This document shows, piece after piece, positions 13,659 through 32,206 of a stretch of 64,000 nt of DNA. The stretch lies in the NCBI GenBank assembly GCA_945890485.1, contig CAMDCN010000007.1:1-64000 (forward strand). Direction: 5' to 3'. The number at the start of each line of letters is the position of its first letter. Position 1 is the first letter of the stretch. The notes under the pieces were generated by a model. The model ran no database searches. It was not told the origin of the DNA and saw nothing but the letters and a program-made list of their open reading frames with translations. The position numbers and the translations under genes were made by a program. This stretch comes from Candidatus Sulfopaludibacter sp. SbA3. GTDB taxonomy: Bacteria > Acidobacteriota > Terriglobia > Bryobacterales > Bryobacteraceae.

Positions 13659-13698
13659 GGCGCATTATATCGACTCAGCCGGAGAGATAATAGGCTCC

Positions 13699-16059: not shown

Positions 16060-17415
16060 CTACTGCGGCCTCGGAACAGCCAACGGAAGGTTCAAGAGAC
16101 CCGCCCCCAGTTCAGCGGCCAATGGCGTTGCTCTCCGCACCGCGGCATCGGCGGCATCAGGGGTTACATTCGGACTCCGGCTAGCGAGTATCGCGACCGC
16201 ACCGGCGACAAACGGCGTCGAGTAAGACGTTCCCCATGCGGCGGCATAACCTCCTCCCGGATATGTCGTCACGATTCCTTCTCCCGGTGCTGCCACAGTA
16301 ACCAGAGGAACCCCAAAGTTACTAAAGGAGCTTCGTTGATCCCGGGCGCCGACCGAGGCGACCCCAATCACATTGGGAAGCGAGGCAGGAAAAACCGTCG
16401 CCGCATGGCCCTGATTCCCAACCGAGGCAACGCAGACAACATTGCGGGCGGTCGCGAAGTTGATGGCCTGGGTCAGTTCCGGAGACTCCTGCGGAAGGCT
16501 GAAACTCATATTGATCACCGTAGCCCCGTTCTGGGCGGCATGGTAGATTGCCTGGGCGATGTGAAAGAGATCCGAGGTGCCGTCGGCACGAAAGGCCCGT
16601 AGCGGCATGATCCGGGAAGTGGGCGCCGTTAGCCGGACGATACCGGCCACCATCGTTCCGTGACCAAACGAAGTGGGTACCTTCGAACCATCCAGAAAGG
16701 CCACGGTGGACTGCGCCAAGGTGATACTCACTCGTTGATTCAATGTAACCGGCACTCCATCCAGGAAAGCAACCGTAGACTGCTGCAGCAAGCTCGACAC
16801 CCCACTGGGGACCGTCTCAATCTCACTCACCATATCCGCCGAGCCGGTGACGAAATCGTACCCGGGAACCAGCGCTCCGGCAAGCGCCGGGTGGACAGGG
16901 TCAATGCCGGTGTCTATCACCGCCACCACGCCAGAGCCGGTTGCCCCGTGCTGATGCATCTGCGCGATCCCTATCTTGCCCGCCGCTGGCTGCCGGACGT
17001 ATCCAGTCCAAGCGGTGCCACCGTAGTAGGACAAATACGAACGGTCTCCCAGCAGAGAACTGAGCGGGCCGTCGTGGACCAGCGGCTTCAGAATCGCATC
17101 GTCTTCTTCGGGAAGCACAATCGCCTCGTTGATCTCGAAACTCAAAACGTCCGGATGAGCGCGAACGGCAGCCAGGAAGTCGACGAAAGAACTCTCATCC
17201 TCCTCATCATCATCCCGCTCAACAAGGAACACGTTCTGTCCCGGAATGCGTTCTTCCACTTCAAGATCAAACTCCGAAACTACTCTGTCTAACGCGCCAG
17301 GGCGGACCCTAAGTACAAACGTCACGTCATCGTCAGCCAAGATCGGGAACGGGGAAAACAATGCTAAAAAAATGGAGACTAGCCAGATAAGCACGGTACG
17401 GGTCGTGTTGGTCAT
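16060..17415 (-). CDS. Subtilisin-like serine protease (S8), exported
   Basis: 451 residues from ATG 17415, preferred over an upstream start because it begins a signal peptide (VLIWLVSIFLALFSPFPILA) and has AGGAC before it. A propeptide-like segment with an acidic stretch (ERDDDEEDESS) covers residues 30-100. The triad is Asp168 (VIDTGID), His252 (FGHGTMVAG) and Ser397 (GTSYSTP), with oxyanion Asn334 (VGNQG). Between Asp and His the octapeptide STVAFLDG occurs twice, 22 residues apart. It is the last gene of the sigma/CHAT run, 13 bp after the anti-sigma-like gene, so a role in that regulatory pathway is likely. Confidence 0.88.
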   Translation of the reverse strand: MTNTTRTVLIWLVSIFLALFSPFPILADDDVTFVLRVRPGALDRVVSEFDLEVEERIPGQNVFLVERDDDEEDESSFVDFLAAVRAHPDVLSFEINEAIVLPEEDDAILKPLVHDGPLSSLLGDRSYLSYYGGTAWTGYVRQPAAGKIGIAQMHQHGATGSGVVAVIDTGIDPVHPALAGALVPGYDFVTGSADMVSEIETVPSGVSSLLQQSTVAFLDGVPVTLNQRVSITLAQSTVAFLDGSKVPTSFGHGTMVAGIVRLTAPTSRIMPLRAFRADGTSDLFHIAQAIYHAAQNGATVINMSFSLPQESPELTQAINFATARNVVCVASVGNQGHAATVFPASLPNVIGVASVGARDQRSSFSNFGVPLVTVAAPGEGIVTTYPGGGYAAAWGTSYSTPFVAGAVAILASRSPNVTPDAADAAVRRATPLAAELGAGLLNLPLAVPRPQ

Positions 17416-17428
17416 TTTGTAATTCGTC

Positions 17429-18070
17429 CTAATCAATTTCTTTGTCTGTCCGGATCGAAGTCGTCGCATCCAGGTCCATCACCACTGCTTCGGGACCCTG
17501 TGGTGACCACGCGATCAACTGGAGGCCAGACTGAAGCCGGCACTCCAATTCGAATTCACCGAACTCGTTGGCCTGGGCTTCGGCTAAGGTCGCATGGCCG
17601 TCTGTCAACGCCACGCGCAGACCCTCTTCGATTGCGGCCTCACTCGTCCTGGTCGACAACTGTCCGGTCAAGAGAATCATCCGCTTGGGTGACAAAAATT
17701 CCAACTGCAGGTCGGCTCGGAACATGCCCGAGTGAAAAACCATGTGGCGAACCTGTTGGTCCACACTCCGGGCACCTGCCGGTTGCAGTTGCTGGGTGCT
17801 GTCAAAAAGGAGTTCGGCAAGTCGCCGAGGGAGATCCAGGAAAGAGGGCTGTGGCTCCGGCCGAAAGATCGCCAGGGCCCGGGAAACTGCATCGCGGGGC
17901 ACAGGAAGCAATCGGTCTTGCGAGGAAGTCCGTTCCACCATGCTTAGGGAGGCCACTAGCGCCTGACAAGCGGTACAGTTCAAATGCAGATGAGACTGCA
18001 TTTCGAGGGCCAACGCCGGGTCGGCCAGCCCACGTACGAAATCGATCCATTGTCCTTCGCTATAGTGCAC
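17429..18070 (-). CDS. Putative anti-sigma / zinc-finger protein with carboxypeptidase-regulatory-like domain
   Basis: 213 residues from GTG 18070, preceded by a purine-rich AAGAAGGA. Residues 5-40 resemble the N-terminal zinc-finger of anti-sigma factors: ADPALALEMQSHLHLNCTAC, with H and CxxC. The spacing is H-x2-C-x2-C, or H-x4-C from the first His, rather than the usual H-x3-C-x2-C. The C-terminal half reads LTGQLSTRT...GLRVALTDGHATLAEAQANEFGEFELEC, a beta-sandwich of the carboxypeptidase-regulatory type. No clear TM segment is seen. Position after the ECF sigma and TPR-CHAT genes suggests it holds the sigma factor inactive and may be the protease substrate; that is inference. Confidence 0.65.
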   Translation of the reverse strand: MHYSEGQWIDFVRGLADPALALEMQSHLHLNCTACQALVASLSMVERTSSQDRLLPVPRDAVSRALAIFRPEPQPSFLDLPRRLAELLFDSTQQLQPAGARSVDQQVRHMVFHSGMFRADLQLEFLSPKRMILLTGQLSTRTSEAAIEEGLRVALTDGHATLAEAQANEFGEFELECRLQSGLQLIAWSPQGPEAVVMDLDATTSIRTDKEID

Positions 18071-18197
18071 GATGTTGTCTTCCTTCTTCTCAGGGGAGGG
18101 ACGGTCTATGAAAAATATACCGAGCAGGAAAAAATGTACGGAAAAATTTCCCAGGTGCGGCAAGCTCACGGTCCGAGTCTCAACTCCTCTGGGAAGC
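18071..18197 (-). promoter_or_regulatory. AT-rich gap with candidate internal promoter
   Basis: This is the largest gap (127 bp) in the 27.1-16.1 kb minus-strand run and is markedly AT-rich. Read on the minus strand it has GGGAAATTTTTCCG (near 18152-18139) and TATATT (18119-18114), a good -10 but with a weak -35 (TTCCGT). It may start a separate transcript for the anti-sigma-like and subtilisin genes. Confidence 0.4.
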
Positions 18198-21065
18198 CTA
18201 CCCACCCATCAACGCAAAGCCTGCCCAATAATATGGGTGCGCCCACTCTTGACGCACCTGCAGCATCGCATGCCGCAGGGAGTCGGGCAGCGTACTACCC
18301 GCCGTAAGCCGCCCATAGAACAGGTCCATGAATCGCGTCGTGCTGACATCGCTGACGTCCCAGAAACTGGTGAGCAGGTTATGCGCCCCTGCCTGTAAGA
18401 ACCCGCTGGAAAGCCCGATCAGCTCATCCCCACCCATTACGGCATGGCTACCCGTGCTGCAGCCGCTCAGCGTCACCAACTGGGCCGACAGTTGGAGGTC
18501 GTCAAGATCCAGCACGCTTAAATTGCCGTCGGCGAGACGAATGGCGGAGAACAAGGGGCTATCCGAACGGAACAGACCGTGGGAGGCAATATGAACGTGC
18601 GAAGCGTACTGCCCGGCCTCGCGCAAAGCGGCAACCGTAGCCGCGGGACCGATCCGTAGATCGCCGGCCAAATGCCGCGCCACCAATTGGGCCTCGTCGG
18701 CGATAAAGGGCGCCCGCTCATCGGGAACTCCCAGCACCAAAGGCTTTTGCTCGAGCGGTCGTGCCTGCCGCGCCGGACGGCGGCCGATCGCCGCAAAAGT
18801 CTCACCGCTCAATGTCTGGCGGATCGAGAACTCGCCAACCAAGGGGCTTCCTGCCACCCCAAGCGCGGCAAAGGGCAGGCCGTGCAAAAACGAATGCGGT
18901 GCAAACACCAGGGATGGCACCGTTAGACGAGAGCGGAGGGGCTGAATGAGAAGACGATACAGCGTCGCCAGATGCGCCGTAATTGCTTGGATGTTCACGG
19001 TGGCGCTCAGATCCGTTCGATAGCTGGAACTGGAGATCTGAAACTGTAACAATCGAGTCGCTTTGCGAACTTCCGCCGTTGAGGCAAGCTTGTGGACAAC
19101 GAGCTCCGTCCTTCCATCCAACAGGAAGGCGTACACATTCTCCGGTGTGCAGTAGTACTCAATGAGAAGTTCGTCAACGCCAATGGAGCGGCGGACCGCG
19201 GACTCGGCCTCAGCCGCATCCTGGGCCGCCGCGGGCCATACGTCCGCCAGGAAGCCGTCCGCATCGTACAGCCGAAGCTGACTTAGGCGTTCGCGCACCA
19301 AGGCCTCCGCCAGGGCTGTGCGGGATCGCCATTCGCGGACTTCCGTCATTTCGCCACGCATTTCCGCCTCGGCGGTCCGCAGGTAGCATTGTTGCAATTG
19401 AGCCCGGGCGTCGACAAAGGACGGGTCATTCCGAGTCGCACCGCGAGCGGTGAATCGGCTGCCGTAGCTATCGCGAAAGGCCCGCGACTTCGCATTTTGC
19501 ACGGATGCCCACGCCGCCTGTACTTGCCCCGCCGCGGCCGGCCTCCGCAGTCGGAGAGTAACCAGCCGCTCGAACAGTGGCGTTTTGTCCTCCAGGAAGC
19601 GGATGCGCAGTTCCTCTCCCGGAATTTTCAGGCGAAGCCCGTCCAACTCCCGTTCCGCTGCTTCGTACGTCGACATCGCATCGCCTGCTCGCGCCTGCGC
19701 CTCCTGTGCTTGACCTAAAAGCATCCGGGCCCGAAAGGATAGGCTACGGGAGCCCATCTTTTCCGCCGCTTCGAGAGAACGCCGGCTCAGCTCCTCGGCC
19801 TCGGCGAACCGGTTTTGCCGCATCCGGACCCGGCACAGAACCAGCGCAGAGAGAACCGCTTTTCCAAGGGCCTCGCTATGGGCAAAAAAACGCCAACACC
19901 GCTGCGCCCGGGTAGCGGCGCGCACAACGGCGCCCAATTCCAGATCGAGCAGGGCCAAATGGAGATCGATGAACGCCGGCCAAGCGCGATTGCCCTCTTG
20001 CGAAAATATACGACGGGCCCGCCGGAAGAGCAGGATCGATTCCTCCGTCTCCCCACGGCCCGTTAGGGCCGCCGCATGAAAGACCATCGCCTTCGCTCTC
20101 TCGTAGCGCATGGCGAGCCGACCGAAAGCTTGCACCGCCGAAGCCGCCAAACGCTCTGCCTCTCCAAAAAGATTGAGATCGAGCATCATCTCCGCTTGAT
20201 CCAGATCACAGAGCGCGGAATGATAGTTGTCCGCTACCGCATCGGAATGAACCCGGGCGATGGCGTACAAACGCATCGCCTCCCGATTGTCGCCGCGCAG
20301 AAAATAGAGGTAGGCGATATTGTAGTCCGCCTGTGCCGCTAACAGCGGGAAACGATTCGCCACGCAGACCTCGCGGGCGGACCGGTGCAATCGGAGCGAA
20401 TCTTCAAATCGTCCCACGCTGATGTAGCAGGTAGCGAGGTTACTGTAGACCGCGGCGAGATCCTGCGGACAACCAGACCGATCGAACTCCTGCCGGGCGC
20501 TCTCATAGCGAACCAGCGCCTGTTCAAACCGGTCCAACCGGAAATAGAGATTGGCTAGATTCCCGTCCAGTCGCGCCAGGCGAACCGCATCTCCACGCGC
20601 CGCAAATACGGTTCTCGCCTCCTCGCCCCACGCAATGGCTTCGTCGTACCTCGCCAGGTAAGCTAACGTTTGAATGGCGCTACTCTTTGTTCGCGCCACC
20701 TCTTCTTCGCCCCATTCCGTCCCTTCTATCTGGAACTGCGCAATCGCCTGCTCATAGGCCACGCGAGCCTGAGAGTAGTTCCGCTGTAGATAGTGAACAT
20801 TGGCGGCTGCCCGCAACGCCATGCCCAGCAGTCCGGCCTCCCCCAAATGGTTCGCCATCGTCTGCATGGCCGCCACCAACTCACTCGCCCGCGCCAGATT
20901 CTCGCGTGCCAGCCGCAAGACCTCAGGGTACAGCTCAGCCAAGGTGGCGGCGGAATACAGGGTCGACGGAATATCCAGACGCGTACCGGGTTCTTTCTCC
21001 AGCCACTGGGCCAGCACATGGCCTAGTGGTGACGTAGTGCTGTCGGTCTCTGAACGTAGGTCCAT
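18198..21065 (-). CDS. TPR-CHAT caspase-like protease
   Basis: 955 residues. Residues about 60-480 are tandem TPR-type helical repeats (for example LANLYFRLDRFEQALVRYES, then LATCYISVGRFEDSLRLHRS). The C-terminal 330 residues are a CHAT domain (caspase HetF-associated with TPRs): FAPHSFLHGLPFAALG, then HIASHGLF with the catalytic His near 826, and LSGCSTG with the catalytic Cys near 867. ATG 21065 is preferred because AGGTG lies six bases upstream; GTG 21074, abutting the sigma stop, adds three residues. It is probably a cytoplasmic cysteine protease switched on through its TPRs. Being joined to the sigma gene, it probably acts on that factor's control. Confidence 0.87.
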   Translation of the reverse strand: MDLRSETDSTTSPLGHVLAQWLEKEPGTRLDIPSTLYSAATLAELYPEVLRLARENLARASELVAAMQTMANHLGEAGLLGMALRAAANVHYLQRNYSQARVAYEQAIAQFQIEGTEWGEEEVARTKSSAIQTLAYLARYDEAIAWGEEARTVFAARGDAVRLARLDGNLANLYFRLDRFEQALVRYESARQEFDRSGCPQDLAAVYSNLATCYISVGRFEDSLRLHRSAREVCVANRFPLLAAQADYNIAYLYFLRGDNREAMRLYAIARVHSDAVADNYHSALCDLDQAEMMLDLNLFGEAERLAASAVQAFGRLAMRYERAKAMVFHAAALTGRGETEESILLFRRARRIFSQEGNRAWPAFIDLHLALLDLELGAVVRAATRAQRCWRFFAHSEALGKAVLSALVLCRVRMRQNRFAEAEELSRRSLEAAEKMGSRSLSFRARMLLGQAQEAQARAGDAMSTYEAAERELDGLRLKIPGEELRIRFLEDKTPLFERLVTLRLRRPAAAGQVQAAWASVQNAKSRAFRDSYGSRFTARGATRNDPSFVDARAQLQQCYLRTAEAEMRGEMTEVREWRSRTALAEALVRERLSQLRLYDADGFLADVWPAAAQDAAEAESAVRRSIGVDELLIEYYCTPENVYAFLLDGRTELVVHKLASTAEVRKATRLLQFQISSSSYRTDLSATVNIQAITAHLATLYRLLIQPLRSRLTVPSLVFAPHSFLHGLPFAALGVAGSPLVGEFSIRQTLSGETFAAIGRRPARQARPLEQKPLVLGVPDERAPFIADEAQLVARHLAGDLRIGPAATVAALREAGQYASHVHIASHGLFRSDSPLFSAIRLADGNLSVLDLDDLQLSAQLVTLSGCSTGSHAVMGGDELIGLSSGFLQAGAHNLLTSFWDVSDVSTTRFMDLFYGRLTAGSTLPDSLRHAMLQVRQEWAHPYYWAGFALMGG

Positions 21066-21074
21066 CGCTGACAC

Positions 21075-21692
21075 CTAACTTGGCCGCAATCCCAGTTCTT
21101 CAAGTGACTTCTGCAGCTTGCGGATACAGCGGCCCCGAATGAATCCAATTGAGCCGGTCGCCAAACCGAATCGAGCGGCCGCTTCCCCATAGGAGATTGG
21201 AGGATCTGTGAGGAACAGCAGTTCCACTAACTCTCGGCAGCGCACCGGCAGGTTCGCAATCGCATCGCGAACGGCCTGATCGCGCTCGAGTTCGGCCATC
21301 ACTTCTGGCGCCAACGGCGCGGCGTTCTCCGGTTCGTCACGGTCCTCGTCCGGAAGATCGACCTCCCCGCGCCGCTGTAGATTCCTTTTCCAGCGCAGGG
21401 ACCGCCTACCCGCCACGGTCGCCAACCAAGAACGCAACGCCTCCGCGTTCCGTAGGTGTGGCAGCTCCTGGTATAAATCCATCCAAACTGCTTGGAAGAT
21501 ATCAGCGGCATCCTCTGGAGTTGCGCCGTAGCGATATGGAATCGAATAGACCAGGTTCTGATACTTCACGATCAGCGCTTCCCAAGCCCGCTGGTCGCCC
21601 CCCCGGCATGCGGTCAACAGCTTCTCATCCGGCCACGACCGGTCTGGGAGACTGCCGAGAACTTCGCCAATCGTAGAGGCCAGATCCGTCAT
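21075..21692 (-). CDS. ECF-type RNA polymerase sigma factor
   Basis: 205 residues. Sigma region 2 spans residues 30-105 (WEALIVKYQNLVYSIPYRYG, DAADIFQAVWMDLYQEL, ALRSWLATVAGRRSLRWKR) and region 4 spans 135-200 (LPVRCRELVELLFLTDPPISYGE, IGFIRGRCIRKLQ). The linker is acidic. Its ATG overlaps the stop of the peptide-binding-protein gene by 4 bp and its TAG abuts the CHAT gene, so it is translated between them. It probably directs transcription of its own cluster. The subgroup was not determined. Confidence 0.9.
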   Translation of the reverse strand: MTDLASTIGEVLGSLPDRSWPDEKLLTACRGGDQRAWEALIVKYQNLVYSIPYRYGATPEDAADIFQAVWMDLYQELPHLRNAEALRSWLATVAGRRSLRWKRNLQRRGEVDLPDEDRDEPENAAPLAPEVMAELERDQAVRDAIANLPVRCRELVELLFLTDPPISYGEAAARFGLATGSIGFIRGRCIRKLQKSLEELGLRPS

Positions 21693-23488
21693 GGCTTAAT
21701 ATTCTCTACGGCCCAATAGATTTCGTCCAAGCCTTCTAGTAGATGCGGCGCAAGGACAGCTGACTGCACATTTCGCAAGGCACGGTGCGCCCCGATTAGC
21801 ACGTGGGGGCTCACCAAACCAAGAAAAGGAAGCTCCCGGCTGATAATTCGCTGCACTTGGGCATAGTCCGTTTTTCGTTTCAGCGGATCGATCTCCGAAA
21901 CTTGACGCTTCATCAAACGATCGATTTCCCCTTCCCACGCTGTCGCCGGCTGCGGTTGATTGGGATGCCAGAAGTGCATACGCCCACTTGAAAGTAACAT
22001 CGGCATCTGGGCCGTCGGGTCCACATCCCCGTCGCGCAAGGCCAAAATCGCCGCCTCGTAGTCTTTCGTGTTCAATACCCGGTCGATCAGACTGCGAAAC
22101 TCCAGCGGTGCCAGGGACACCGTGATGCCCAACGCCCGTAAATCCTCCTGAATCATCGCCGCCATCTGCCGTTGTTCCGTATTGGCGGCATTCATCGCGA
22201 CCGTAAAGGAGACTGCGTTGCCGGAGGAATCCACCAACTGCTCACCCTTCCAGGTCAGTCCCATCGCTTTCAGTTGGCGGCGCGCCTCGTCAACCGAGCG
22301 GACTGGCACGGAACTCGCGCCGCTATACCAGAGCTTGTTCCCTGGACTTACATGACTGGACAGAGCACTCGCTTTCCCTTGAAACACCAGACGGGCGATT
22401 CCAGCGCGGTCAATCGCCATCGAGACGGCCCGCCGGAACCGGACATCTTGCAGCCAACCTCGTTTCGCTAACAATGCGGATAGTCCCGAGTCTGTCAGGT
22501 CGTTCTGATTAAAAAAAAGAAAGTGCTGCTCCAGACCAGGGCCCAGGTCCTTTAAAATCGGGCGTTGCTCCAGAGGCAGCCTCTCCAGCGAGCCATAGCC
22601 CCGCGCGGTCAGCCGGCTGTGCAGGTGCGTGTCGCCGGCCCGGAATCGAAGCAACTCCGCCTCCGGGTTGGGACTGAAGATCACCACCACCTCATCCAGG
22701 TAGGGCAACTGAACACCAGCCGTGTCGCGCTTCCAATAATGCGGATTGCGCTCCAAAACCATGCGCTGGCCCGGCAGGTACTCCTTCAGCCGAAATGGTC
22801 CCGTGCCGGCAAGTTCACTCGACGGCGCTCCCACCGTCCATTTCTCCAGCAGCTTGCCCGCCAGGTAGGCCGCCTCCAGCTTGTGTCGCGGCAAAATGGC
22901 GATGCTGTCAAAAAGTCTCTCGGCTGGCGCATAGGGTGCTGGCAAAGTGACTTCAATGGCGTTCTCGCCCACCGCGCGCAGGGTGGGAAATTTTCCATCC
23001 ACCCGCAGCAGATCACGCCCCGGAGCCTTCACGTTCTCGTCCAGCAGTACCCGAAAGGTAAACAGCACGTCCGCCACCGTCAACGGCTGCCCATCGGAAA
23101 ACTTTAGCCCGCGGCGCAACTGTAGAGTGTATTGCTTGCCGTCCCGCGAACGGCTCCACTCCCGCGCCAGCGCCGGCCGGGTCTCCTGCGAGGGCCGATG
23201 GATATGAACGAGATCAGAGTGGAGTAGACCCTGAATCTCCTTTGAGGAGGCATCCAGCGCGTTCAGCGGCATCAGCGTCTTCGGTTCGGCCCGCAGAGAG
23301 AAAACCAAGCGGCCCCCCGGTTTCCCTACCGCGGACCGGGATATCAGGTACTCCGGGTTCTGACCCCAAAGCCGCGGCGCCAAGGAAACGACCAGCGCAA
23401 CGGTAAGCAGCGTGGCCAACCCGATCGGACGACCTTGACCGTCCCGCGAGGACCCTAAACTCTGCTTACACTTCGGACGTAGCATCAA
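21689..23488 (-). CDS. Peptide/nickel-type ABC transporter substrate-binding protein
   Basis: 599 residues with an N-terminal hydrophobic export segment after about 20 residues (IGLATLLTVALVVSLAPRLWG). The SBP_bac_5 (DppA/OppA-like) family is shown by LAREWSRSRDGKQYTLQLRRGLKFSDGQPLTVADVLFTF, GTGPFRLKEYLPGQRMVLERNPHYWK, VRFRRAVSMAIDR and NQPQ near the end. It is the periplasmic receptor for the two permeases and two ATPases encoded just upstream, 3 bp away, and it overlaps the ECF sigma gene. The ligand is probably a short peptide, which cannot be specified. Confidence 0.9.
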   Translation of the reverse strand: MMLRPKCKQSLGSSRDGQGRPIGLATLLTVALVVSLAPRLWGQNPEYLISRSAVGKPGGRLVFSLRAEPKTLMPLNALDASSKEIQGLLHSDLVHIHRPSQETRPALAREWSRSRDGKQYTLQLRRGLKFSDGQPLTVADVLFTFRVLLDENVKAPGRDLLRVDGKFPTLRAVGENAIEVTLPAPYAPAERLFDSIAILPRHKLEAAYLAGKLLEKWTVGAPSSELAGTGPFRLKEYLPGQRMVLERNPHYWKRDTAGVQLPYLDEVVVIFSPNPEAELLRFRAGDTHLHSRLTARGYGSLERLPLEQRPILKDLGPGLEQHFLFFNQNDLTDSGLSALLAKRGWLQDVRFRRAVSMAIDRAGIARLVFQGKASALSSHVSPGNKLWYSGASSVPVRSVDEARRQLKAMGLTWKGEQLVDSSGNAVSFTVAMNAANTEQRQMAAMIQEDLRALGITVSLAPLEFRSLIDRVLNTKDYEAAILALRDGDVDPTAQMPMLLSSGRMHFWHPNQPQPATAWEGEIDRLMKRQVSEIDPLKRKTDYAQVQRIISRELPFLGLVSPHVLIGAHRALRNVQSAVLAPHLLEGLDEIYWAVENIKP

Positions 23489-23491
23489 ACG

Positions 23492-24511
23492 TTAGGACTC
23501 CTCGGGTGCAACCGCAACCGGCTGCAATTGCAACTCCAATGTTCTGGCAACTTGGCCGGAGAGCAAAATAGATAAAGTCAGAAGCACTGCCGGGAACCCA
23601 AGCCACCAGCGGCGGTCAGCCACCAGATCGTACTGAACCGAGGATAGCATCGTTCCCCAGCTCGGCACCGGTTCCGCCACCCCTAGCCCTAGGAAGGAAA
23701 GGGCCACCTCCACGAGCATGAATTCGGGAATAAGAATTGCAGCCTGAGCGCCCAGCACGCCCCGCAAACGAGGGAAAATGTGCTTCCGCAGAAGGTAGAT
23801 GGGTCCGGCTCCAAACCCTCGCGCTGCCATCACATATCCCTCATTGCGCGTGCTCATCACCACTCCGCGAAGAAGTCTTGCCGGACGCGCCCAACCAAGG
23901 ATACTGATCAGCCCCACCGCGAGAGCAAAAGCCACCGCTGGCGGCGTCTGGATAGGAAGCGCCGCCCGTAACGCCAGCAACACGTAGAGCACCGGTAGGG
24001 CCATCAACAACTCGGCGCCTCGGCTGATCATAAGATCGGGCCATCCGCCCAGCAGGCCGGCCAGGCAACCGCCCAAGATCGCCAGCAGCAAAGCGACCAT
24101 CGTCGCCAGCAGACCCGTGGCAAAGGTGACCGTACCGCCGGCCAACGATCGGCTAAAGACATCACGCCCCAAGTCGTCGGTGCCAAATAGAAAGAGTAGT
24201 CCGGGACTCTCCGCGCGGAATAGCACCATTCGGCCATCTCCCGCCGGTTGCAAGAGCGAGACGGGGTAACGGACACGGCAATCCTCCCCATAGGAGCCCA
24301 CTGAATCCGAACTCGGAACCATCTTGCACACAAATGGCATTCGCCATTCTCCCGCAGGGTCCACCATCCGGATTCGAGTGGGGGGCGCCGCCGGAAAATC
24401 CCGATGCTGCTCCCGCCAGGAGTAAGGAGCCATCCAGGCCAGACCCGCCAGCAGCATGTACCAACTGAGAAGAGTCACGGCGGCCGGCAGCCGCCAAGCA
24501 CATTCCCTCAC
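23492..24511 (-). CDS. Peptide ABC transporter permease, DppC-like
   Basis: 339 residues. A TM helix at residues 10-30 is followed by a periplasmic loop of about 75 residues (GTDDLGRDVFSRSLAGG marks the DppC/OppC N-domain) and a BPD_transp_1 core. The EAA loop reads VMAARGFGAGPIYLLRKHIFPRL. The GTG start sits in a GTGA overlap with the DppB-like gene, so the two are coupled. Confidence 0.9.
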   Translation of the reverse strand: MRECAWRLPAAVTLLSWYMLLAGLAWMAPYSWREQHRDFPAAPPTRIRMVDPAGEWRMPFVCKMVPSSDSVGSYGEDCRVRYPVSLLQPAGDGRMVLFRAESPGLLFLFGTDDLGRDVFSRSLAGGTVTFATGLLATMVALLLAILGGCLAGLLGGWPDLMISRGAELLMALPVLYVLLALRAALPIQTPPAVAFALAVGLISILGWARPARLLRGVVMSTRNEGYVMAARGFGAGPIYLLRKHIFPRLRGVLGAQAAILIPEFMLVEVALSFLGLGVAEPVPSWGTMLSSVQYDLVADRRWWLGFPAVLLTLSILLSGQVARTLELQLQPVAVAPEES

Positions 24512-25524
24512 GAGCGAATCCTCGGGTCGATGCGCCGAATCGCCAAGTCCGCCGCCAGATTTCCCGCCATCTGCGCGGATGCCGCAAACATCACGGCACC
24601 AACCACGACGTACGTATCGCGACTAAACACCGCCTCCAGCAGGAGAGGGCCAAGTCCCGGCCAGCCCGTGACCGTCTCCACCAGCAGCGAAGCGCTCAGG
24701 GTACTTCCCAAGGAATTGCCCAACAGCGAGATCAATGGATTAGCCGCCGCGGGAAAGAGATAGCGCCAACGCACAACCTTCGGGGGCAACCCAGCCTGCC
24801 GGGCCGCGAGCACGTAGGACTCCGCAAGGGCCTCGGACCAAGCCGCGCGCATATGCCGGAAGTAGGTCGGTGCAATCCCCACGGAGAGAGCCAGGACCGG
24901 TGCCACCAATCCTACAGCCAGGGAAGGCAGACCGCCCAGCCAGCCCGTCTCCGCCCGGGCTGCCGCGCCGCCGGGCAATGGCAGACCATACGCCTGTGCC
25001 ATAGCCAGAATCAGCAGAACCAGCACAATCTCCGGGATCGCCAGCGAAGCTTGCATTCCGCGGCCAGCGCCTTGCGCCAACCAACTATCGGGCCGCTGAG
25101 CGGCAAATGTCGCCAGCGGCAAGGCCACCAGTAGCGCAACCACTAACGCCACCAGGTTCAGTAGGACCGTCGCTCCGAGGCGCGGCAGCAATAGCGCCAT
25201 GGCATCCGTTTGATACGAGAGGCTCGGGCCCAGATCCCCGCGGCTCAGCCCGTCCAGCCATCGGGCGTAGCGAGTCCCCAGCGGTGAGTCCAGTCCGTAC
25301 CGGTCCCGTAGGCCCTCCAGCGTCGCTGACGAAACAGCTGGGCTCGCTTCCGCATCCGTCAAAAAGTCCCCCGGAATCCAATCAAACAGGGCGAAACAAA
25401 AAAAGGACAGCAGCCCCAACGTCACTGCAGCTTGCAGCAAACGGGTTAACAGAAAATGCACCCACATTGGAAACCGTCCATGTGCGCGGTCAGGGATTTG
25501 CGTCGCGGGCATCGGCTCTTTCAC
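24508..25524 (-). CDS. Peptide ABC transporter permease, DppB-like
   Basis: 338 residues. It opens with FLLTRLLQAAVTLGLLSFFCFALF, the typical DppB N-terminus, then LRDRYGLDSPLGTRYARWL and five further TM segments. The EAA loop is SYVLAARQAGLPPKVVRWRY. GTG 25524 directly follows the ATPase stop (TAAGTG); ATG 25512 or ATG 25464 are also possible. It pairs with the DppC-like subunit. Confidence 0.88.
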   Translation of the reverse strand: MKEPMPATQIPDRAHGRFPMWVHFLLTRLLQAAVTLGLLSFFCFALFDWIPGDFLTDAEASPAVSSATLEGLRDRYGLDSPLGTRYARWLDGLSRGDLGPSLSYQTDAMALLLPRLGATVLLNLVALVVALLVALPLATFAAQRPDSWLAQGAGRGMQASLAIPEIVLVLLILAMAQAYGLPLPGGAAARAETGWLGGLPSLAVGLVAPVLALSVGIAPTYFRHMRAAWSEALAESYVLAARQAGLPPKVVRWRYLFPAAANPLISLLGNSLGSTLSASLLVETVTGWPGLGPLLLEAVFSRDTYVVVGAVMFAASAQMAGNLAADLAIRRIDPRIRS

Positions 25525-26334
25525 TTAGTGTGTTGGGCCACCCGATTTGATTGGTGGACCAGGCACAAAATTTGCTTGGCGTGCCTGCCATCCGGCGAGA
25601 ATTTCCTGACTATACAAGTGCTGCGGTCCAGAAAAGAAGCTATCCATTGACTGGAGTTCCACGATAACCCCACTCCGCATGACCGCAATTCGCTCGGCGC
25701 AATGGGCTGCGGCGCCCAGGGAATGAGTCACCAAAACCGTCGCCAGCGGCCGATCCCGCCGCAATTCCTGTAAGAGGTCCAAAATGTCCCGCTGGATCGG
25801 CGGATCGAGGCCCGCCAATGGCTCGTCCAGCAACAACACCGCGGGCTCCAAGGTCATCGCCCGAGCGAGCAGCAGCCGCTGCCGCTGCCCTCCACTCAAT
25901 TCGCCAGGCAAACGCTCCGTCACGCTCGCCGGCAGGCCGACCCTTTCCAGCCAACGCCGAGCCACCACGTCCCGCTCCTGCCGGGAAAGGTCACTCCGCA
26001 ACAGATCCATCGGCTCCCGTACCAGAGCCAAACCATTCCACCATGGGTTCAACGCCCGCGCGGCGTCCTGCAGTACCAACTGCACCCCTCGGCAAAACCG
26101 TTTCCGTTGCTCGCCACGCAGCCTCCAAACTACGACGCCCTCGAATACCACGCTTCCGGTATCGGGCCGTTCAAGTCCAGCCAAACAACGCAGCAAGGTA
26201 CTCTTGCCGCAACCGGATTCCCCCACGATCGCCAAGGACTCCTCCGCGCCGATCGAGAGCGACACTCCCCCCAAAGCGCACGCCGCGCGATGCCGCTTTG
26301 CAAGCTCTCGCGCCACCAGCAGAGCCTCACTCAT
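25525..26334 (-). CDS. Peptide ABC transporter ATPase, DppF-like
   Basis: 269 residues. Walker A is GESGCGKST, the signature LSGGQRQRLLLARAM, Walker B VLLLDEPLAGLD, with an H-loop VTHSL. The C-terminal oligopeptide-ABC tail is shorter than usual. The ATG overlaps the stop of the upstream ATPase gene (ATGA). It is one of two cytoplasmic motor subunits of the importer. Confidence 0.9.
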   Translation of the reverse strand: MSEALLVARELAKRHRAACALGGVSLSIGAEESLAIVGESGCGKSTLLRCLAGLERPDTGSVVFEGVVVWRLRGEQRKRFCRGVQLVLQDAARALNPWWNGLALVREPMDLLRSDLSRQERDVVARRWLERVGLPASVTERLPGELSGGQRQRLLLARAMTLEPAVLLLDEPLAGLDPPIQRDILDLLQELRRDRPLATVLVTHSLGAAAHCAERIAVMRSGVIVELQSMDSFFSGPQHLYSQEILAGWQARQANFVPGPPIKSGGPTH

Positions 26335-27101
26335 ATCGAAGGCCTCACGCCTCCGGAGCGAGAGGCAAACATCGAATCCACTAGGACCCTCGTCATCGGC
26401 CCGATGCTTCCCGCGGCAAATTCTTTTTCGCTCGCTTCTTCAACAATACGCCCACGGTCCATCGTAATCACCCGATCGGCAAAGTGAAACATCTCACTCG
26501 GATCATGGGTGATCCATAAAATCGTCAGTACAGACTCCGCACGGATCCTCTTCATACACCGGAGCAGCGATGCGGCATGGATCGGATCCAGCGCGGACGT
26601 CGCCTCATCCGCCACTAATAGCGAAGGGCCCATCGCCAAAGCGCGAGCCACTGCTACCCGCTGCAACTCCCCTCCGCTCAACTCATGAGGCCATGCCAAA
26701 TCGGCCCTCCGCTCCTCCGGCAGCCCCGCCTCCAGAAACAACGCCCTCACCTGTTCACCGGCGGATTCAACCGGGTTACCGTGAGCCAAAAGAATATCCT
26801 TCACTTGTTCGCCACACTGCAGAAACGGACTCAGAACCGCAGCCGGATTCTGCGGAACAAGTGCCGCACGGCCACCAGCCATTTCCGGAGCCCATTCCAC
26901 TTCCCCGCTAGACATGCGCGCCGAGACCGGCAACACCCCGGCTAGAAGCCCGCCCAGAGTGCTCTTCCCACTCCCAGATCTCCCCAGCACGCCCACCACT
27001 TCGCCACGCCGAAGGGTGCAAGTCACACCGTCCAGCGCCTTCACCGCATCCTGGCGCTGAAGCCGATAGCTGACCGATACGTCGGAACATCGCACTAACA
27101 T
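26331..27101 (-). CDS. Peptide ABC transporter ATPase, DppD-like
   Basis: 256 residues. Walker A is GRSGSGKST, the signature LSGGELQRVAVARAL, Walker B LLVADEATSALD, with an H-loop WITHD. Shorter than typical DppD (about 330) because the C-terminal extension is missing. First gene of the long minus-strand run; ATG 27101 has GGTGG seven bases upstream. The promoter must be in the 224-bp gap beyond it. Confidence 0.9.
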   Translation of the reverse strand: MLVRCSDVSVSYRLQRQDAVKALDGVTCTLRRGEVVGVLGRSGSGKSTLGGLLAGVLPVSARMSSGEVEWAPEMAGGRAALVPQNPAAVLSPFLQCGEQVKDILLAHGNPVESAGEQVRALFLEAGLPEERRADLAWPHELSGGELQRVAVARALAMGPSLLVADEATSALDPIHAASLLRCMKRIRAESVLTILWITHDPSEMFHFADRVITMDRGRIVEEASEKEFAAGSIGPMTRVLVDSMFASRSGGVRPSI

Positions 27102-27325
27102 TCAAATACCACCGCTCGCCGCAATCTCGAACTCGTTCAGCACCGAAGAGAGCTGAAAAAATTTCGTGCGGCTATATTTTTGGCAGCGTGACTGCCCCTA
27201 GTCAATTGTAGGCCGCTAGGGGATAACGCAGCGGACGGCACAGAAGCCACTAATGAGGCGGATCGCCCCACATCCCAAAGCGCATCTCGAGTCCACCAAA
27301 CCGGCCAGCACTCTAAGGAGAATTT
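27102..27325. promoter_or_regulatory. Divergent control region between two large operons
   Basis: 224 bp separate the peptide-importer/sigma run (-) from the NTPase-ABC-HTTM operon (+). It contains an AT-rich core (GAAAAAATTTC and GCTATATTTTTGG at 27156-27184). A hairpin follows: CCCCTAG (27195-27201) pairs with CTAGGGG (27216-27222). The + operon has a strong AAGGAG six bases before ATG 27326. Exact promoters were not resolvable. Confidence 0.5.
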
Positions 27326-28465
27326 ATGTCACCAGCCCTCACCATCAATGCCATCCCGCCTGTTCCTGGCATTGCTTTTCCCACTCTCTCGTTTCACCGG
27401 GACCGGCTGACCAATTTGGCCGCGGAACCCGCCCTTCCTCGCTGGTCCTGGGCCTGCCGGATTATGGAGCCCGGCACGACCCAGATCGTCTCCCAACCCT
27501 TGGGATACGTTCCTGCCGCGGGAGACCTCGCGGTCGTCGAAGTGGAGGAGATGGGATTCCATGAGCGGATCACCACGCAAGACAATCTCCGCCTGCGCAT
27601 CTATCCCGGGGACCGTATCGTCGGTGTCTTCGGCAATCGTTACGCTACCGATGCTTACGAAGGTGAAGTCGACGGTTTGCATGAGCTCAGCCTGCTCACC
27701 GCTGGCGGAATGATCGGCACGGTGCGCTCTCGTCACCGTTCCGTGAAGCGCCCGACTCGCGTCAAGTTCCTCGGTTTCGTCGCCGATTCCAATGGCGAAG
27801 TTGTAAACCTGAAAACGGCCGGATTCCAGAAAGCCGCGCCCACGCAAGCACCGCGCAATCTGGTCGCCGTCGTCGGGACTGGCATGAACGCCGGCAAAAC
27901 CACCTCCTGCGTCAAGCTGATCAAAGCAATTTCACAGCAGGGCCACCGCGTTGCCGCCTGCAAGCTCACCGGCAGTGTTTCGAATCGGGATCAGGATGAA
28001 ATGCGCTCTGCCTCCGCCGTCCAGGTGCTCGACTTCAGCGACTACGGCTTCCCCTCCACCTATCTTTGCGGCAAGGACGAGTTGATGGATCTGTTCGGGA
28101 CCATGATGGCCGGATTGGAACCGGCCAACGCCGACGTCACGGTAATGGAAATCGCCGACGGCATCCTGCAACGGGAGACTGCGATGTTGCTCGAGGATGA
28201 ATCGATCAGGCAGCAACTGTCCGGCGTTGTGCTCGCCGCTGACAATGCGCTGTCCGCTCGCTACGCCGTGAGCCGCCTCGAGAGCCTCGGCCATCGGGTG
28301 CTCGCCGTAACCGGCGTTTTAACGTCGTCTCCACTCTGCATGCGCGAGTTCGCCGAAATCTCCGGAACGCCCGTCGCCTCCTCCGCCGGCGACGCCATCA
28401 TGCTCGGCGAAACGGTCACCGCGGCGCTCGAACTCCGCCGGAATACTGCAGCAAATGTCGCGTAG
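27326..28465 (+). CDS. P-loop NTPase of unknown function (DUF1611/MobB-like fold)
   Basis: 379 residues. Residues 1-165 form a beta-rich domain (PGDRIVGVFGNRYATDAYEGE, RSRHRSVKRPTRVKFLG). From 178 an NTPase domain begins with Walker A GTGMNAGKTT (184-193), followed by ACKLTGSVSNRDQDE and an acidic Walker-B-like VTVMEIADG. The lysine-threonine motif and the split-strand pattern recall the SIMIBI class (BioD, MobB, DUF1611). Bound nucleotide and substrate are unknown. It leads a seven-gene operon and overlaps or abuts the ABC gene. Confidence 0.65.
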   Translation: MSPALTINAIPPVPGIAFPTLSFHRDRLTNLAAEPALPRWSWACRIMEPGTTQIVSQPLGYVPAAGDLAVVEVEEMGFHERITTQDNLRLRIYPGDRIVGVFGNRYATDAYEGEVDGLHELSLLTAGGMIGTVRSRHRSVKRPTRVKFLGFVADSNGEVVNLKTAGFQKAAPTQAPRNLVAVVGTGMNAGKTTSCVKLIKAISQQGHRVAACKLTGSVSNRDQDEMRSASAVQVLDFSDYGFPSTYLCGKDELMDLFGTMMAGLEPANADVTVMEIADGILQRETAMLLEDESIRQQLSGVVLAADNALSARYAVSRLESLGHRVLAVTGVLTSSPLCMREFAEISGTPVASSAGDAIMLGETVTAALELRRNTAANVA

Positions 28466-28487
28466 GCAATTGCTCACGGAGCCGCTT

Positions 28488-30242
28488 ATGGCAAGGACCA
28501 ACGAAGCCCCGGCGCCATCAAACGCCACCGCCTGGCGCGCCATCCTGGGCCAGCTCCGCCCTTACCGTCGCGAACTGGCCACGGCCGCCGCGTGGCGCGT
28601 TCTCTTCCGTCTGCTTCCGGTCCAGGTTCCTCTCCTGGCCGGCGCACTCGTCGACGGCTTGAGCGGTCGGCCCGCACTGGTGTGGGGGTTAGACCTCTCC
28701 ACTCAACAGCCGCACGTGTTAGTGGAACGTCTCGGCCTGGCCCTCACCGGCATCGCTATCCTGACCGGAGTCGCCGCCTACGCCGCGGCTCGCTCCGCCG
28801 GACGGCTCAATCGCTTGGTCGTGCAGAGTTTCCAGCAGCAAGTCCTTACCGCGTGGGAATATGCTTCAGCGTCGTTTCACCGTCGGCATGGCGCCTCCGC
28901 TCTATCCGACCACGTCCTCTCGGACGCCCGCGGTATTGGACTCCTGGCGCGATTGTCCGTTGTCGAAGGAAGCGCCGAAACGGTACGGTTCCTCTATCCG
29001 GCCATCGTGCTCCTAACCATCGATCCTTGGATGGCCGTTTTTCCCATCGCCTCGCTGCCAGTCCAGTTCGTGCTCACGCAGCTGGCCGAACGCTGCGAGG
29101 ACGACTCTACCGACTTCTGGCAACAGCGCAAGTCCCACTTCAAACGCAGAATTCGGGAAAACTTCGAAGGTATCGAAACAGTGCAGGCCTTAAGCGCTCA
29201 GTCCACAATGCTCTCCCGTATCAGCACGGAGTCCGACGAGCTGCTGCTGGGATCCAGCAAAGCAGGGATCTACAGTTCTCTGCTCACCGCATCAGTCTGG
29301 AGCCTCTCGCTGCTGGCCTTGGGCGGCTCTTGGTGGGCGGGAGGCCATCGGGTCCTCACGGGAGAAATATCTTCCGGCGCGTTGGTGGCCTTTGTCGGCT
29401 TCGTTGGATATCTCAATGTGCCTCTCCGCCGGCTTGGCGGCGCCGCTAAGGAGACCCGCCGACAGTTGGCCCGGCTCCAACGAGTGCTCCACCTCATCGA
29501 TTCCGCCGCCGCCGACCAGCGCCAGCAGGGAACGGACGAACTGGAACCTGCCGCCGGCTACATCAGCCTGCGCGATCTCAGCCTGACCTACAGCCGCCAG
29601 ACAATTCTTTCCGATGCCTCCGCCACTTTCCCGGCCGGAGCAATGATTTGGATCAAGGGCCGTAGCGGCTCGGGGAAGAGTACCCTCCTGAGCCTGCTAG
29701 CCGGCTTCGATCAGCCCAACCATGGCAGTATCCTTGTCGACGGTCAAGACCTCCGCGAGTGCACCGTTTCCTCTATCCGGCGCCATATCGTCCTGGTCCC
29801 GCAACAAGCCGCAATCTTCACCGGTACCGTGGCCGAGAACCTTTCGCTCGGTCGGGATGGTGCCAGCGACGCCGAAATGATCAACGCCTGCGCAATCGCT
29901 GGCTTCAGCAGCACCCTCCGATCCCTACCCGAGGGGCTGGCCTCCATGATCGGCGAGGGCGGCCTCCGGCTCTCCGGCGGCCAACTGCAACGGCTGGCCA
30001 TCGCCCGGGCCCTCTTGCGGCAGCCCCGGGTTCTTCTCCTCGACGAACCCACCGCGGCGCTCGATCCCGATGCCGAGACCGATCTCCTCAACAATCTCTC
30101 CGCCCTCACGCCAAATATCACCATCGTGGTCGTGGCCCATAGCCTCCGCTCCCTGGCCGCATTTCACCACGTCATGGAACTCGAAGCCGGAGGCATCCGC
30201 CAATGGCCTCTCACCACCGCGGCGACTCCTGCCAGCCGCTGA
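28488..30242 (+). CDS. ABC exporter, fused membrane domain and ATPase
   Basis: 584 residues from ATG 28488, chosen because GGAG lies seven bases upstream; an earlier in-frame ATG at 28455 would overlap the NTPase gene. Six TM segments (type I exporter fold) occupy residues 20-320. The ATPase has Walker A GRSGSGKST, Q-loop VPQQAAIFTGTVAENLSLG, signature LSGGQLQRLAIARALL and Walker B VLLLDEPTAALD. As a half-transporter it should act as a homodimer. With a thiol protein, an HTTM protein and a peptidase in the operon, a modified peptide or small molecule is a likely cargo (inference). Confidence 0.88.
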   Translation: MARTNEAPAPSNATAWRAILGQLRPYRRELATAAAWRVLFRLLPVQVPLLAGALVDGLSGRPALVWGLDLSTQQPHVLVERLGLALTGIAILTGVAAYAAARSAGRLNRLVVQSFQQQVLTAWEYASASFHRRHGASALSDHVLSDARGIGLLARLSVVEGSAETVRFLYPAIVLLTIDPWMAVFPIASLPVQFVLTQLAERCEDDSTDFWQQRKSHFKRRIRENFEGIETVQALSAQSTMLSRISTESDELLLGSSKAGIYSSLLTASVWSLSLLALGGSWWAGGHRVLTGEISSGALVAFVGFVGYLNVPLRRLGGAAKETRRQLARLQRVLHLIDSAAADQRQQGTDELEPAAGYISLRDLSLTYSRQTILSDASATFPAGAMIWIKGRSGSGKSTLLSLLAGFDQPNHGSILVDGQDLRECTVSSIRRHIVLVPQQAAIFTGTVAENLSLGRDGASDAEMINACAIAGFSSTLRSLPEGLASMIGEGGLRLSGGQLQRLAIARALLRQPRVLLLDEPTAALDPDAETDLLNNLSALTPNITIVVVAHSLRSLAAFHHVMELEAGGIRQWPLTTAATPASR

Positions 30243-30276
30243 AGCCCGTTAATCCAAATCCCAGGGAGAACCAACT

Positions 30277-30789
30277 ATGACCGAAATAGCCACATCCGTC
30301 GAAAACATCCGCTCCGGAAAACTAGTCCCGGCCATTCTCAGCTTCATCGCCCTGATCGCGGTGCTCTCGCCCATCTGCGAAAACTTCAAACGGAAGCCAG
30401 TCGATAGCTTTCCCCTCTCCTACTACCCAATGTTTTCCGCGAAACGCCATGCGAACTTCTCCGGACAAACCCTCATCGGCATCGATCACCAAGGGAACCG
30501 CCAACGCCTCCGCCACACCCTCGCCGGCACCGGCGGCTTCAACCAGGTTCGCCGCCAAATCGCCGCTGCCGTCAAGGAGGACCGCGCCATGGAAATCTGC
30601 AATACCGTCGCCAAACGGGTGGCGCGTTCAAAACGATACACCGGGCCACACCTCGCCTCCGTGCAGGTCGTAACCGCTACCCACCACATCGACTCCTTCT
30701 TCGCCGGCAGCCAAATCCCAGTCGCCGAAAAGCTTCACGCCGCTTGCCCGGTACCCGCGCCCACCAAGTCGAACAAGGGGATCAAATAA
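30277..30789 (+). CDS. Small membrane-anchored protein of an HTTM operon
   Basis: 170 residues; ATG 30277 is preceded by AGGGAGAA. One TM segment (residues 17-35, VPAILSFIALIAVLSPI) is followed by DSFPLSYYPMFSAKR and a 110-residue soluble domain with several Arg/Lys and two Cys. Family not recognised with certainty. It lies 2 bp before the HTTM gene, and proteins with a SxYPMFS segment commonly neighbour HTTM genes, so it may be a partner subunit. Confidence 0.7.
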   Translation: MTEIATSVENIRSGKLVPAILSFIALIAVLSPICENFKRKPVDSFPLSYYPMFSAKRHANFSGQTLIGIDHQGNRQRLRHTLAGTGGFNQVRRQIAAAVKEDRAMEICNTVAKRVARSKRYTGPHLASVQVVTATHHIDSFFAGSQIPVAEKLHAACPVPAPTKSNKGIK

Positions 30790-30791
30790 TC

Positions 30792-31763: not shown

Positions 31764-32206
31764 GCACCCTTACCTCAAAATCCAACGACCTGCCAGGTCT
31801 CGCCGAACGGCCCCAAGCCAACGTCGTCGTCTACGACGGCCTCTGCCGCTTCTGCGTCGCCCAAATGCGCTTCATCTCCAAATTGGATCGCACCGGAAAA
31901 CTGGCCTTTCTTTCGCTCCACGACAGCATCGCCGATCTCCTCCTCCCCGACGTGAGCTTCGAACAACGCATGAAGGCCATGATCGTCATCGACGGAAATT
32001 GCCACCGCCACGCCGGTGCCGATGCCGTCCGCCATCTCTCCAAACTGCTCCCCCTACTCTGGCTCTTCGCACCCCTCCTCCATTTCCCCGGCACCCGGCC
32101 CCTGTGGCGATGGCTCTACGACCGTATCGCCCAAGTCCGTTACCGTTTCGGCCGCGTCAATTGCGACGGCGGCACCTGCCATCTCCACGAGCATCCCCGT
32201 GCCTAA
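31760..32206 (+). CDS. DCC family thiol-disulfide oxidoreductase-like protein (DUF393)
   Basis: 148 residues from ATG 31760 in an ATGA overlap. VVYDGLCRFC carries the family's CxxC (Cys29, Cys32), usually YDGxCxFC. Then FLSLHDS and an FEQRMKAMIVIDG strand follow, and a hydrophobic helix LLPLLWLFAPLLHF ends in RVNCDGGTC. The family is thioredoxin-like. Next to a carboxylase-like HTTM protein it could supply reducing power, as VKOR does for the vitamin K cycle; that link is inference. Confidence 0.85.
   Translation: MSTLTSKSNDLPGLAERPQANVVVYDGLCRFCVAQMRFISKLDRTGKLAFLSLHDSIADLLLPDVSFEQRMKAMIVIDGNCHRHAGADAVRHLSKLLPLLWLFAPLLHFPGTRPLWRWLYDRIAQVRYRFGRVNCDGGTCHLHEHPRA

Follow-up and report, generated by a model that had tools for sequence, protein, structure and literature searches.

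Why should a peptide importer, an extracytoplasmic function (ECF) sigma factor, a protease with tetratricopeptide repeats (TPR) and a CHAT domain, a small protein resembling anti-sigma factors and an exported subtilisin be encoded side by side? The question is raised by nine minus-strand genes at positions 16060–27101 of contig CAMDCN010000007.1 from Candidatus Sulfopaludibacter sp. SbA3; the whole stretch that we analyzed, the first 64,000 nucleotides of this contig, is referred to as the window. A preliminary description of the window had listed these nine genes, and they were confirmed, profile matches assigning a family to each except the small protein (table 1). We find that the gene set is conserved and that the subtilisin contains exact copies of an octapeptide, and we hold it to be somewhat more probable than an even chance that the subtilisin is a multicopy octapeptide precursor feeding a path of import, TPR-CHAT activation, anti-sigma cleavage and sigma release, in quorum or self sensing.

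Conservation of the Operon in Acidobacteriota

Relatives of the CHAT protein were found at 1e-60 in 23 of the 121 genomes searched (the own genome counted), and stretches were taken from 20 of the 22 genomes besides the own one. Compared with the window proteins, the relatives are mostly 31–40% identical for CHAT, 38–49% for the solute-binding protein (SBP), 31–55% for the sigma factor, mostly 22–34% for the small protein and 33–48% for the subtilisin, with one relative at about 80%. Contigs of named genomes were scanned, and the best 79 of a larger number of loci were annotated by means of profiles made from these first relatives; 78 of the 79 carry names that we take as Acidobacteriota, and one is titled Anaerolineae. 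The order that recurs among these loci is ATPase-ATPase-permease-permease-SBP-sigma-CHAT-small protein-subtilisin; exceptions in layout are an importer lying downstream (L080) and one subtilisin lying upstream (L132). Presence was counted in those 56 loci, among the window and the 79, that have enough flanking sequence (each side counted), absences being real losses and faults in the calling of open reading frames (ORFs) pooled. The sigma factor is present in 53 of these loci, the SBP in 50, two or more further importer genes in 44, the anti-sigma gene in 52, a subtilisin in 51 and a repeat-bearing subtilisin in 48. The association suspected from the window alone is thereby borne out: importer, sigma factor, CHAT protein, anti-sigma factor and subtilisin are a conserved operon module.

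The own 7.1-Mb genome has nine CHAT matches, and operon-type neighbors were found (blastp, 1e-5) at only two of them, the one in the window and the one in a paralogous operon (L014), whose sigma factor was missed by BLAST yet is present as a reading frame. Because the same genes are found together in other Acidobacteriota whereas seven of the nine CHAT loci in the own genome have none of these neighbors, the grouping is not due to chance. In a cross-phylum check of plasmid records (156 CHAT, 644 subtilisin), none of the four neighborhoods inspected had the full set.

Some loci are incomplete in a particular way. L074, L084, and L119 have SBP, sigma, and CHAT genes with no subtilisin found downstream and are possible receive-only systems. 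The locus titled Anaerolineae (L068, JALOOI010000090.1) has permeases, SBP, sigma, and CHAT at 44% identity, an anti-sigma frame that looks broken and no subtilisin, which could be due to misbinning or transfer or could represent a system that receives but does not send.

Octapeptide Repeats in the Subtilisin

A short motif first stood out as recurring in the subtilisins of 20 loci. An exact octapeptide repeat is present in 75 of the 79 operon subtilisin ORFs of the window and the 79 loci, in 2–15 copies. The 33 octapeptide types mostly follow the pattern Q-S-T-x-x-[IVFL]-L-[DEN], the type of the window being QSTVAFLD. Of the four subtilisins without an exact repeat, two (L135 and L145) are short or cut ORFs, and two (L116 and L128) have diverged single motifs only. 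Exact 8-mer repeats elsewhere in the operon were found in 0 of 73 anti-sigma proteins, 0 of 82 CHAT proteins, 0 of 73 sigma factors, 1 of 71 SBPs, 3 of 46 and 1 of 50 permeases, and 2 of 49 and 0 of 40 ATPases. The octapeptide occurs in no ORF of at least 70 aa other than the subtilisins in the 80 loci, shorter ORFs having been left unscanned, and a search of viral contigs with one tandem DNA pattern gave no matches. The catalytic residues Asp186, His270, and Ser415 of the subtilisin are invariant across 66 aligned sequences, and an export-like hydrophobic segment (19-residue window of at least 1.6, Kyte–Doolittle), mostly near the N-terminus, is found in 65 of the 78 subtilisins and in 51 of the 71 SBPs examined. 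The preliminary description suggested that the subtilisin could make a peptide signal outside the cell; this can be refined, as the enzyme need not merely produce a peptide by proteolysis but itself contains the candidate peptide as exact repeats.

Identical octapeptides within one protein form 431 pairs, only 2 of which are also identical in DNA. Degenerate codons differ between copies in 1,909 of 3,446 cases, against 2,095 expected for independent draws from local codon usage, and five of eight codons differ between the two QSTVAFLD copies of the window. There are 249 exact eight-mers and 16 with one or two changes, a count biased toward exact copies by the definition of the unit as the commonest eight-mer. 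Since the copies are identical as protein while their synonymous differences are near saturation, the copies appear to be old and selection appears to hold all eight residues; the simplest reading is that the peptide itself is under selection.

The array lies in an insertion between the catalytic Asp and His that has no counterpart in AK.1 protease and thermitase, where 46 and 53 profile positions, respectively, are unmatched. In L078 and in the QSTVSLLN/QSTVALLN group, an array is additionally found at the junction of propeptide and mature enzyme, and the subtilisin at L078:10075–11976 has 15 exact copies of QSTGAILD, most in blocks with a repeated basic linker at that junction. These positions would also suit repeats that act within the enzyme, as a self-recognized cleavage site or as an autoinhibitory loop timing zymogen activation, with importer and switch answering something else: arrays are mostly found immediately ahead of the catalytic His and in some cases at the pro/mature junction, processing being plausible at either place, and many contain one degenerate unit at a spacing of about eight, like a fold repeat. 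However, a simple fold element would not be expected at two sites and in freely varying copy number, eight fixed residues are seldom needed for cleavage specificity, and the copies stay identical despite the near-saturated synonymous change. Among the 12 S8 matches of the own genome, 11 of them readable (all but L180), repeats are found in the two operon subtilisins only, so the other readable subtilases manage without them. A role within the enzyme also leaves unexplained the importer, the codivergence of the TPR region described below and the sharing of units across contigs, and we regard it as unlikely.

The sharing of units bears on the reading of the octapeptide as a signal with a cognate receptor. 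Two subtilisins behind one CHAT gene share their unit in all eight loci of this kind, which descent alone could explain, and two units are found in L069, which has two CHAT systems. In one genome (G144), three anti-sigma/subtilisin pairs on other contigs (L206, L207, and L208) carry the unit of the full operon (L205); no CHAT or sigma gene is near them, and L206 has the unit in a single exact copy. Another genome (G109) has five CHAT loci with subtilisins and five different units. The units of paired subtilisins and the patterns in G144 and G109 fit a matching of octapeptide and receptor.

Predicted Anti-Sigma Factor, Promoter, and Target Operon

The 213-aa small protein of the window has no Pfam or NCBIfam match at 0.001. 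Across 20 aligned sequences of its family, His27, Cys32, and Cys35 are invariant, in the HxxxCxxC arrangement of zinc-type (ZAS) anti-sigma factors with a His–Cys spacing that varies by one (H-x4-C in the window protein). The profile of these 20 sequences matches the PDB chains 3hug_B (2e-5), which we take to be RslA, RsiW (0.003), DdvA (0.06), and ChrR (0.23–0.25), and its C-terminal part matches the small subunit of pyrogallol hydroxytransferase (0.0003). A membrane-span-like segment (threshold as for the export-like segments, N-terminal ORF extensions trimmed) was found in 0 of 70 family members. Given the match to zinc-type proteins and the lack of such a segment, the earlier label "anti-sigma-like" is supported, and the protein is probably a cytoplasmic, soluble zinc-type anti-sigma factor. 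In the class, 143 of 399 genomes have a match to the family at 1e-6, with many scores close to the threshold.

The 127-bp gap between the CHAT and small-protein genes, the one sizeable gap that the preliminary description had pointed to, is real and contains a conserved promoter-like motif. The word TATATTTT is common to 41 of 73 CHAT/anti-sigma gaps, where the commonest 8-mer in shuffled gaps reaches 6, and a bipartite promoter-like motif, CCTATATTTT-N13..17-CCCTTAT, stands before the anti-sigma and subtilisin genes. When the gaps were used to train a two-block matrix, CCTATATTTT-N-CCCTTAT, a site reached 8 bits in 68 of the 73 gaps, compared with 16 of 73 after shuffling, and 16 bits in 62, compared with none of 73 after shuffling. 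In 1.64 Mb of loci, the matrix gives 106 matches of at least 18 bits; an anti-sigma gene follows 72 of these, and an importer ATPase gene follows one (L082). We infer that the motif is read by the sigma factor of this operon. At L082:6–704, L091:1771–3003, L103:5893–7146, and L107:2449–3753, genes that by eye look like glycosyltransferases lie directly behind a sigma-type motif, and at L131:3100–3540 and L133:2807–3316, near the operon, a strong promoter match precedes the gene of a small, apparently exported protein.

The two best matrix sites in the window are at 18121 (−) and at 27171 (+), the latter outside the training set. A model from 46 other loci with the window rows excluded (R2), by which 150 of 435 first-look candidates were scored genome-wide, has three matches in the 7.1-Mb genome, two of them being these window sites; the third, at C8:68076, has no site of at least 18 bits with the gap-trained matrix. 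A sigma promoter had been expected upstream of 27101, the start of the first importer gene. The motif there points away from the importer, toward a divergent gene at 27326 (+). Regions upstream of the first importer gene were searched de novo in 37 loci, and the best two-block word pair occurred in 5 of them, not clearly more than the 3–5 reached in shuffles.

The divergent gene opens a predicted target operon, the last three proteins of which we take to be HTTM-like, DCC-like, and M14-like; this operon could make or export a secreted compound. An orthologous operon, 66–83% identical over six genes, is present in a sister species (G009; locus L216, contig C49, 3896–11672), together with a site of the 27171 type (25.6 bits), the sigma factor (85%), a second site and the anti-sigma factor (66%). 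Importer, CHAT, and subtilisin genes were not found at this locus, and another, full operon of G009 lies elsewhere (L065). The first gene of the target operon is rare, occurring in 2 of the 81 relatives searched (own genome counted). The joint retention in G009 supports the view that sigma factor, anti-sigma factor, and target operon are one regulon.

Having anti-sigma and subtilisin genes behind one promoter-like motif is also a feedback layout, as would be expected if the pathway were the same and the octapeptide were a receipt for the export, maturation or degradation of the cell's own subtilisin, the switch monitoring secretion or proteolysis; with the peptide inside the protease, its release depends on the fate of the subtilisin. 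Up to 15 copies, in contrast, suggest signal amplification, and the 33 unit types and the five units at the five loci of G109 resemble private channels, and we think it quite unlikely that the octapeptide serves as such a receipt.

Outside the operon and its predicted target, positions 13450–16044 (+) encode a PQQ dehydrogenase-like protein fused to cytochrome c, convergent with the operon. No RNA family reached its gathering score in the window, and the only defense matches in PADLOC were to a generic subtilase and, weakly, to BovA and IetS.

Table 1. Features of the operon, its predicted promoters and the predicted target operon in the window
Feature	Position	Strand	Evidence or remark
OppD-like ABC ATPase	26331..27101	−	PF00005; same order in relatives
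OppF-like ABC ATPase	25525..26334	−	PF00005; same order in relatives
OppB-like permease	24508..25524	−	PF00528 and PF19300
OppC-like permease	23492..24511	−	PF00528
Family-5 (oligopeptide/nickel type) SBP, probably exported	21689..23488	−	PF00496, E 4e-75
ECF-type sigma factor	21075..21692	−	PF04542; TIGR02937, E 6.5e-23
TPR-CHAT protein, 958 aa, proposed peptide receptor and protease	18198..21074	−	PF12770, E 2e-53; PF13424
TPR stretch of the CHAT N-terminus, residues 60–300	20175..20897	−	Divergence follows octapeptide divergence
Predicted sigma promoter of anti-sigma/subtilisin genes	18091..18126	−	Gap counts at 16 bits; R2, E 0.71
Predicted zinc-type anti-sigma factor, soluble, 213 aa, with C-terminal domain	17429..18070	−	His/Cys/Cys motif, profile match
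Predicted exported S8 subtilisin with octapeptide repeats	16060..17469 (start possibly ~17415)	−	PF00082, E 9e-38
Octapeptide copy 1, QSTVAFLD	16759..16782	−	
Octapeptide copy 2, QSTVAFLD	16690..16713	−	
Predicted sigma promoter facing the divergent operon	27164..27199	+	Best genome match, R2, E 0.19; kept in G009
Predicted target operon	27326..33419	+	P-loop/DUF1611-like protein, ABC exporter, 170-aa protein, then three more proteins

Candidate Receptor and Relation to Known Systems

The candidate receptor of the octapeptide is the CHAT protein. TPR models match its N-terminal half, its sequence relatives in PDB, GPSM2 and kinesin light chain among them, are TPR proteins, and its most hydrophobic stretch by hydropathy lies in the middle of the protein (median start 642). 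The His and Cys of the protease, described as intact in the window, are invariant across 63 aligned sequences (His832 and Cys872). Over 53 loci, octapeptide distance correlates with CHAT divergence at rho 0.49 for residues 60–300, 0.23 for residues 300–500 and 0.14 for the protease domain, and a partial Mantel test on the same loci associates residues 60–300 with the octapeptide (0.383, 0 of 1,000 permutations), which is not so for residues 300–500 or the protease domain. Positions 2, 5, 9, 12, and 13 within five TPRs, which presumably form the peptide groove, score higher than the others (23 vs. 139 columns, Mann–Whitney p 2e-6). As far as such comparisons of sequences go, the codivergence of octapeptide and TPR groove is suggestive.

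Several results weigh against the reading of the octapeptide as a signal recognized by the TPR region. The partial correlations of the sigma factor (0.312, 0 of 500) and of the SBP (0.19, 2 of 500) likewise follow the unit, so common descent explains part of the codivergence. The parsimony length of the unit is 46 on the trees of both CHAT residues 60–300 and residues 717–957, so that the TPR region is not singled out and tree parsimony gives no proof of TPR-octapeptide matching; the lengths are 48–49 on trees of the CHAT middle, 49 on sigma, 50 on anti-sigma, and 51–53 on SBP trees. A tree-based single-site test of unit position 4 against residue 211 gave p 0.03, uncorrected and with 211 being the top column, and three other site pairs gave p 0.11–0.22. 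The preliminary description had made its reading depend on the presence of the importer at homologous loci, and this mostly held, with the SBP at 50 of 56; it did not hold at 6 of 56, where the SBP is missing in place, and 12 of 56 do not have two other importer genes in place. A subtilisin is missing in 5 of 56 loci and a repeat-bearing one in 8 of 56, and the subtilisins of L116 and L128 are without any exact repeat. The genome-wide promoter E-values (0.19 and 0.71, from the 150 of 435 candidates scored) are weak, but the places of the matches are telling.

On the signaling reading, the secreted subtilisin would be protease and precursor at once, carrying several identical octapeptides that would be freed outside the inner membrane by the subtilisin itself or by a sibling protease. 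The linked Opp-type importer would, judging by its linkage and family, bring the octapeptides into the cytoplasm, where the N-terminal TPR superhelix may bind its cognate octapeptide and activate the CHAT protease, a step with which the codivergence agrees. By analogy with Csx29 and Csx30, the protease would cut the soluble zinc anti-sigma factor and free the ECF sigma factor, which would fire promoters of the CCTATATTTT-N13..17-CCCTTAT type. The one before the anti-sigma and subtilisin genes would yield more precursor and more brake, and others would switch on variable target genes, here the predicted divergent operon. Release, import, TPR binding, CHAT activation, and anti-sigma cutting are thus all predicted steps, read from the genes and their neighbors.

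Two rather different systems come to mind. In the excerpted text of PMC9765709, RRNPPA signaling uses a short linear peptide that is exported, taken up by an oligopeptide permease and read by a cytoplasmic TPR receptor, and some Phr systems, in that of PMC11343458, have several pheromone copies per propeptide and maturation by proteases. The likeness to this family (Rap, Rgg, NprR, PlcR, PrgX, and AimR) lies in the exported peptide, Opp import and TPR receptor predicted here. Unlike in RRNPPA systems, the precursor is a full-size subtilisin, no small propeptide gene being seen when ORFs of 70 aa or more were scanned in the 80 loci; the receptor ends in a CHAT protease instead of a helix-turn-helix or Rap output; the predicted output runs through an anti-sigma factor and an ECF sigma factor; and the host phylum is Acidobacteriota. 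The second system is Craspase, the type III-E CRISPR assembly (Csx29-Csx30-CASP-sigma), in which, in the excerpt of PMC10028731, the TPR-CHAT protease Csx29 cleaves Csx30, which inhibits an ECF-type sigma factor. The likeness here is that of TPR-CHAT protease, sigma inhibitor, and ECF-type sigma factor; the differences are a zinc-type anti-sigma factor and the added importer and repeat-bearing subtilisin, and the match of the window CHAT protein to the Csx29 model is weak (27 bits, cut-off 300). That these Craspase-like parts occur without CRISPR, as first noticed from the window, is upheld: no direct-repeat family of at least 22 bases with spacing up to 120 bases was found in the window, relatives being left unscanned, and none of the window proteins scanned with Pfam was a Cas protein, Cas7-11/gRAMP included.

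Multicopy precursors have a well-known eukaryotic example in yeast alpha factor, with several identical peptides per exported protein; this feature is shared, whereas the precursor here is bacterial and itself a protease. A further comparison is with ECF54 of Actinobacteria, a sigma factor group that we compared by its description in the excerpt of PMC8999054, where it adjoins CHAT, subtilase, and "carboxypeptidase" domain proteins and is proposed to lack an anti-sigma factor. Octapeptide repeats, importer, zinc anti-sigma factor, and promoter, all present or predicted here, are not mentioned in that excerpt, and the one actinobacterial CHAT-subtilase neighborhood inspected (Nonomuraea, L217) has no octapeptide repeats.

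The family assignments alone would agree with a nutritional importer joined to a proteolysis regulon, in which environmental protein is digested, any peptides are imported and the CHAT-sigma pair answers general peptide supply; as this leaves the exact, apparently selected octapeptides and the type-specific divergence unexplained, we consider it improbable. Degradation of the sigma factor itself by its associated proteases, with no anti-sigma factor, as the excerpt of PMC8999054 has it for ECF54 from its CHAT/subtilase/carboxypeptidase context, is very improbable here, where the profile of the conserved small protein matches those of zinc anti-sigma proteins and the subtilisin has an N-terminal export-like segment in most relatives.

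Among the open-licence titles listed in a literature search, none concerned peptide signaling in Acidobacteriota or a system of this kind. The system belongs with neither RRNPPA nor Craspase yet would work like both; it looks like a new form of bacterial peptide signaling, and our confidence in the full mechanism is moderate. Whether Acidobacteriota, which are common soil bacteria, have signaling in which a subtilisin is both enzyme and pheromone precursor, with many private peptide-sigma channels read by TPR-CHAT proteins and having their own targets, is in our estimate an evenly balanced matter. If they do, an entire class of quorum sensing would exist outside Bacillota, and the Craspase switch would have a relative that is triggered by a ligand and free of CRISPR. 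The system would name a candidate signal for the species of the window, QSTVAFLD in some frame, together with its receptor, switch, promoter, and target operon, and would offer orthogonal peptide-sigma channels for synthetic biology. It would also reveal what TPR-CHAT proteases may sense outside CRISPR.

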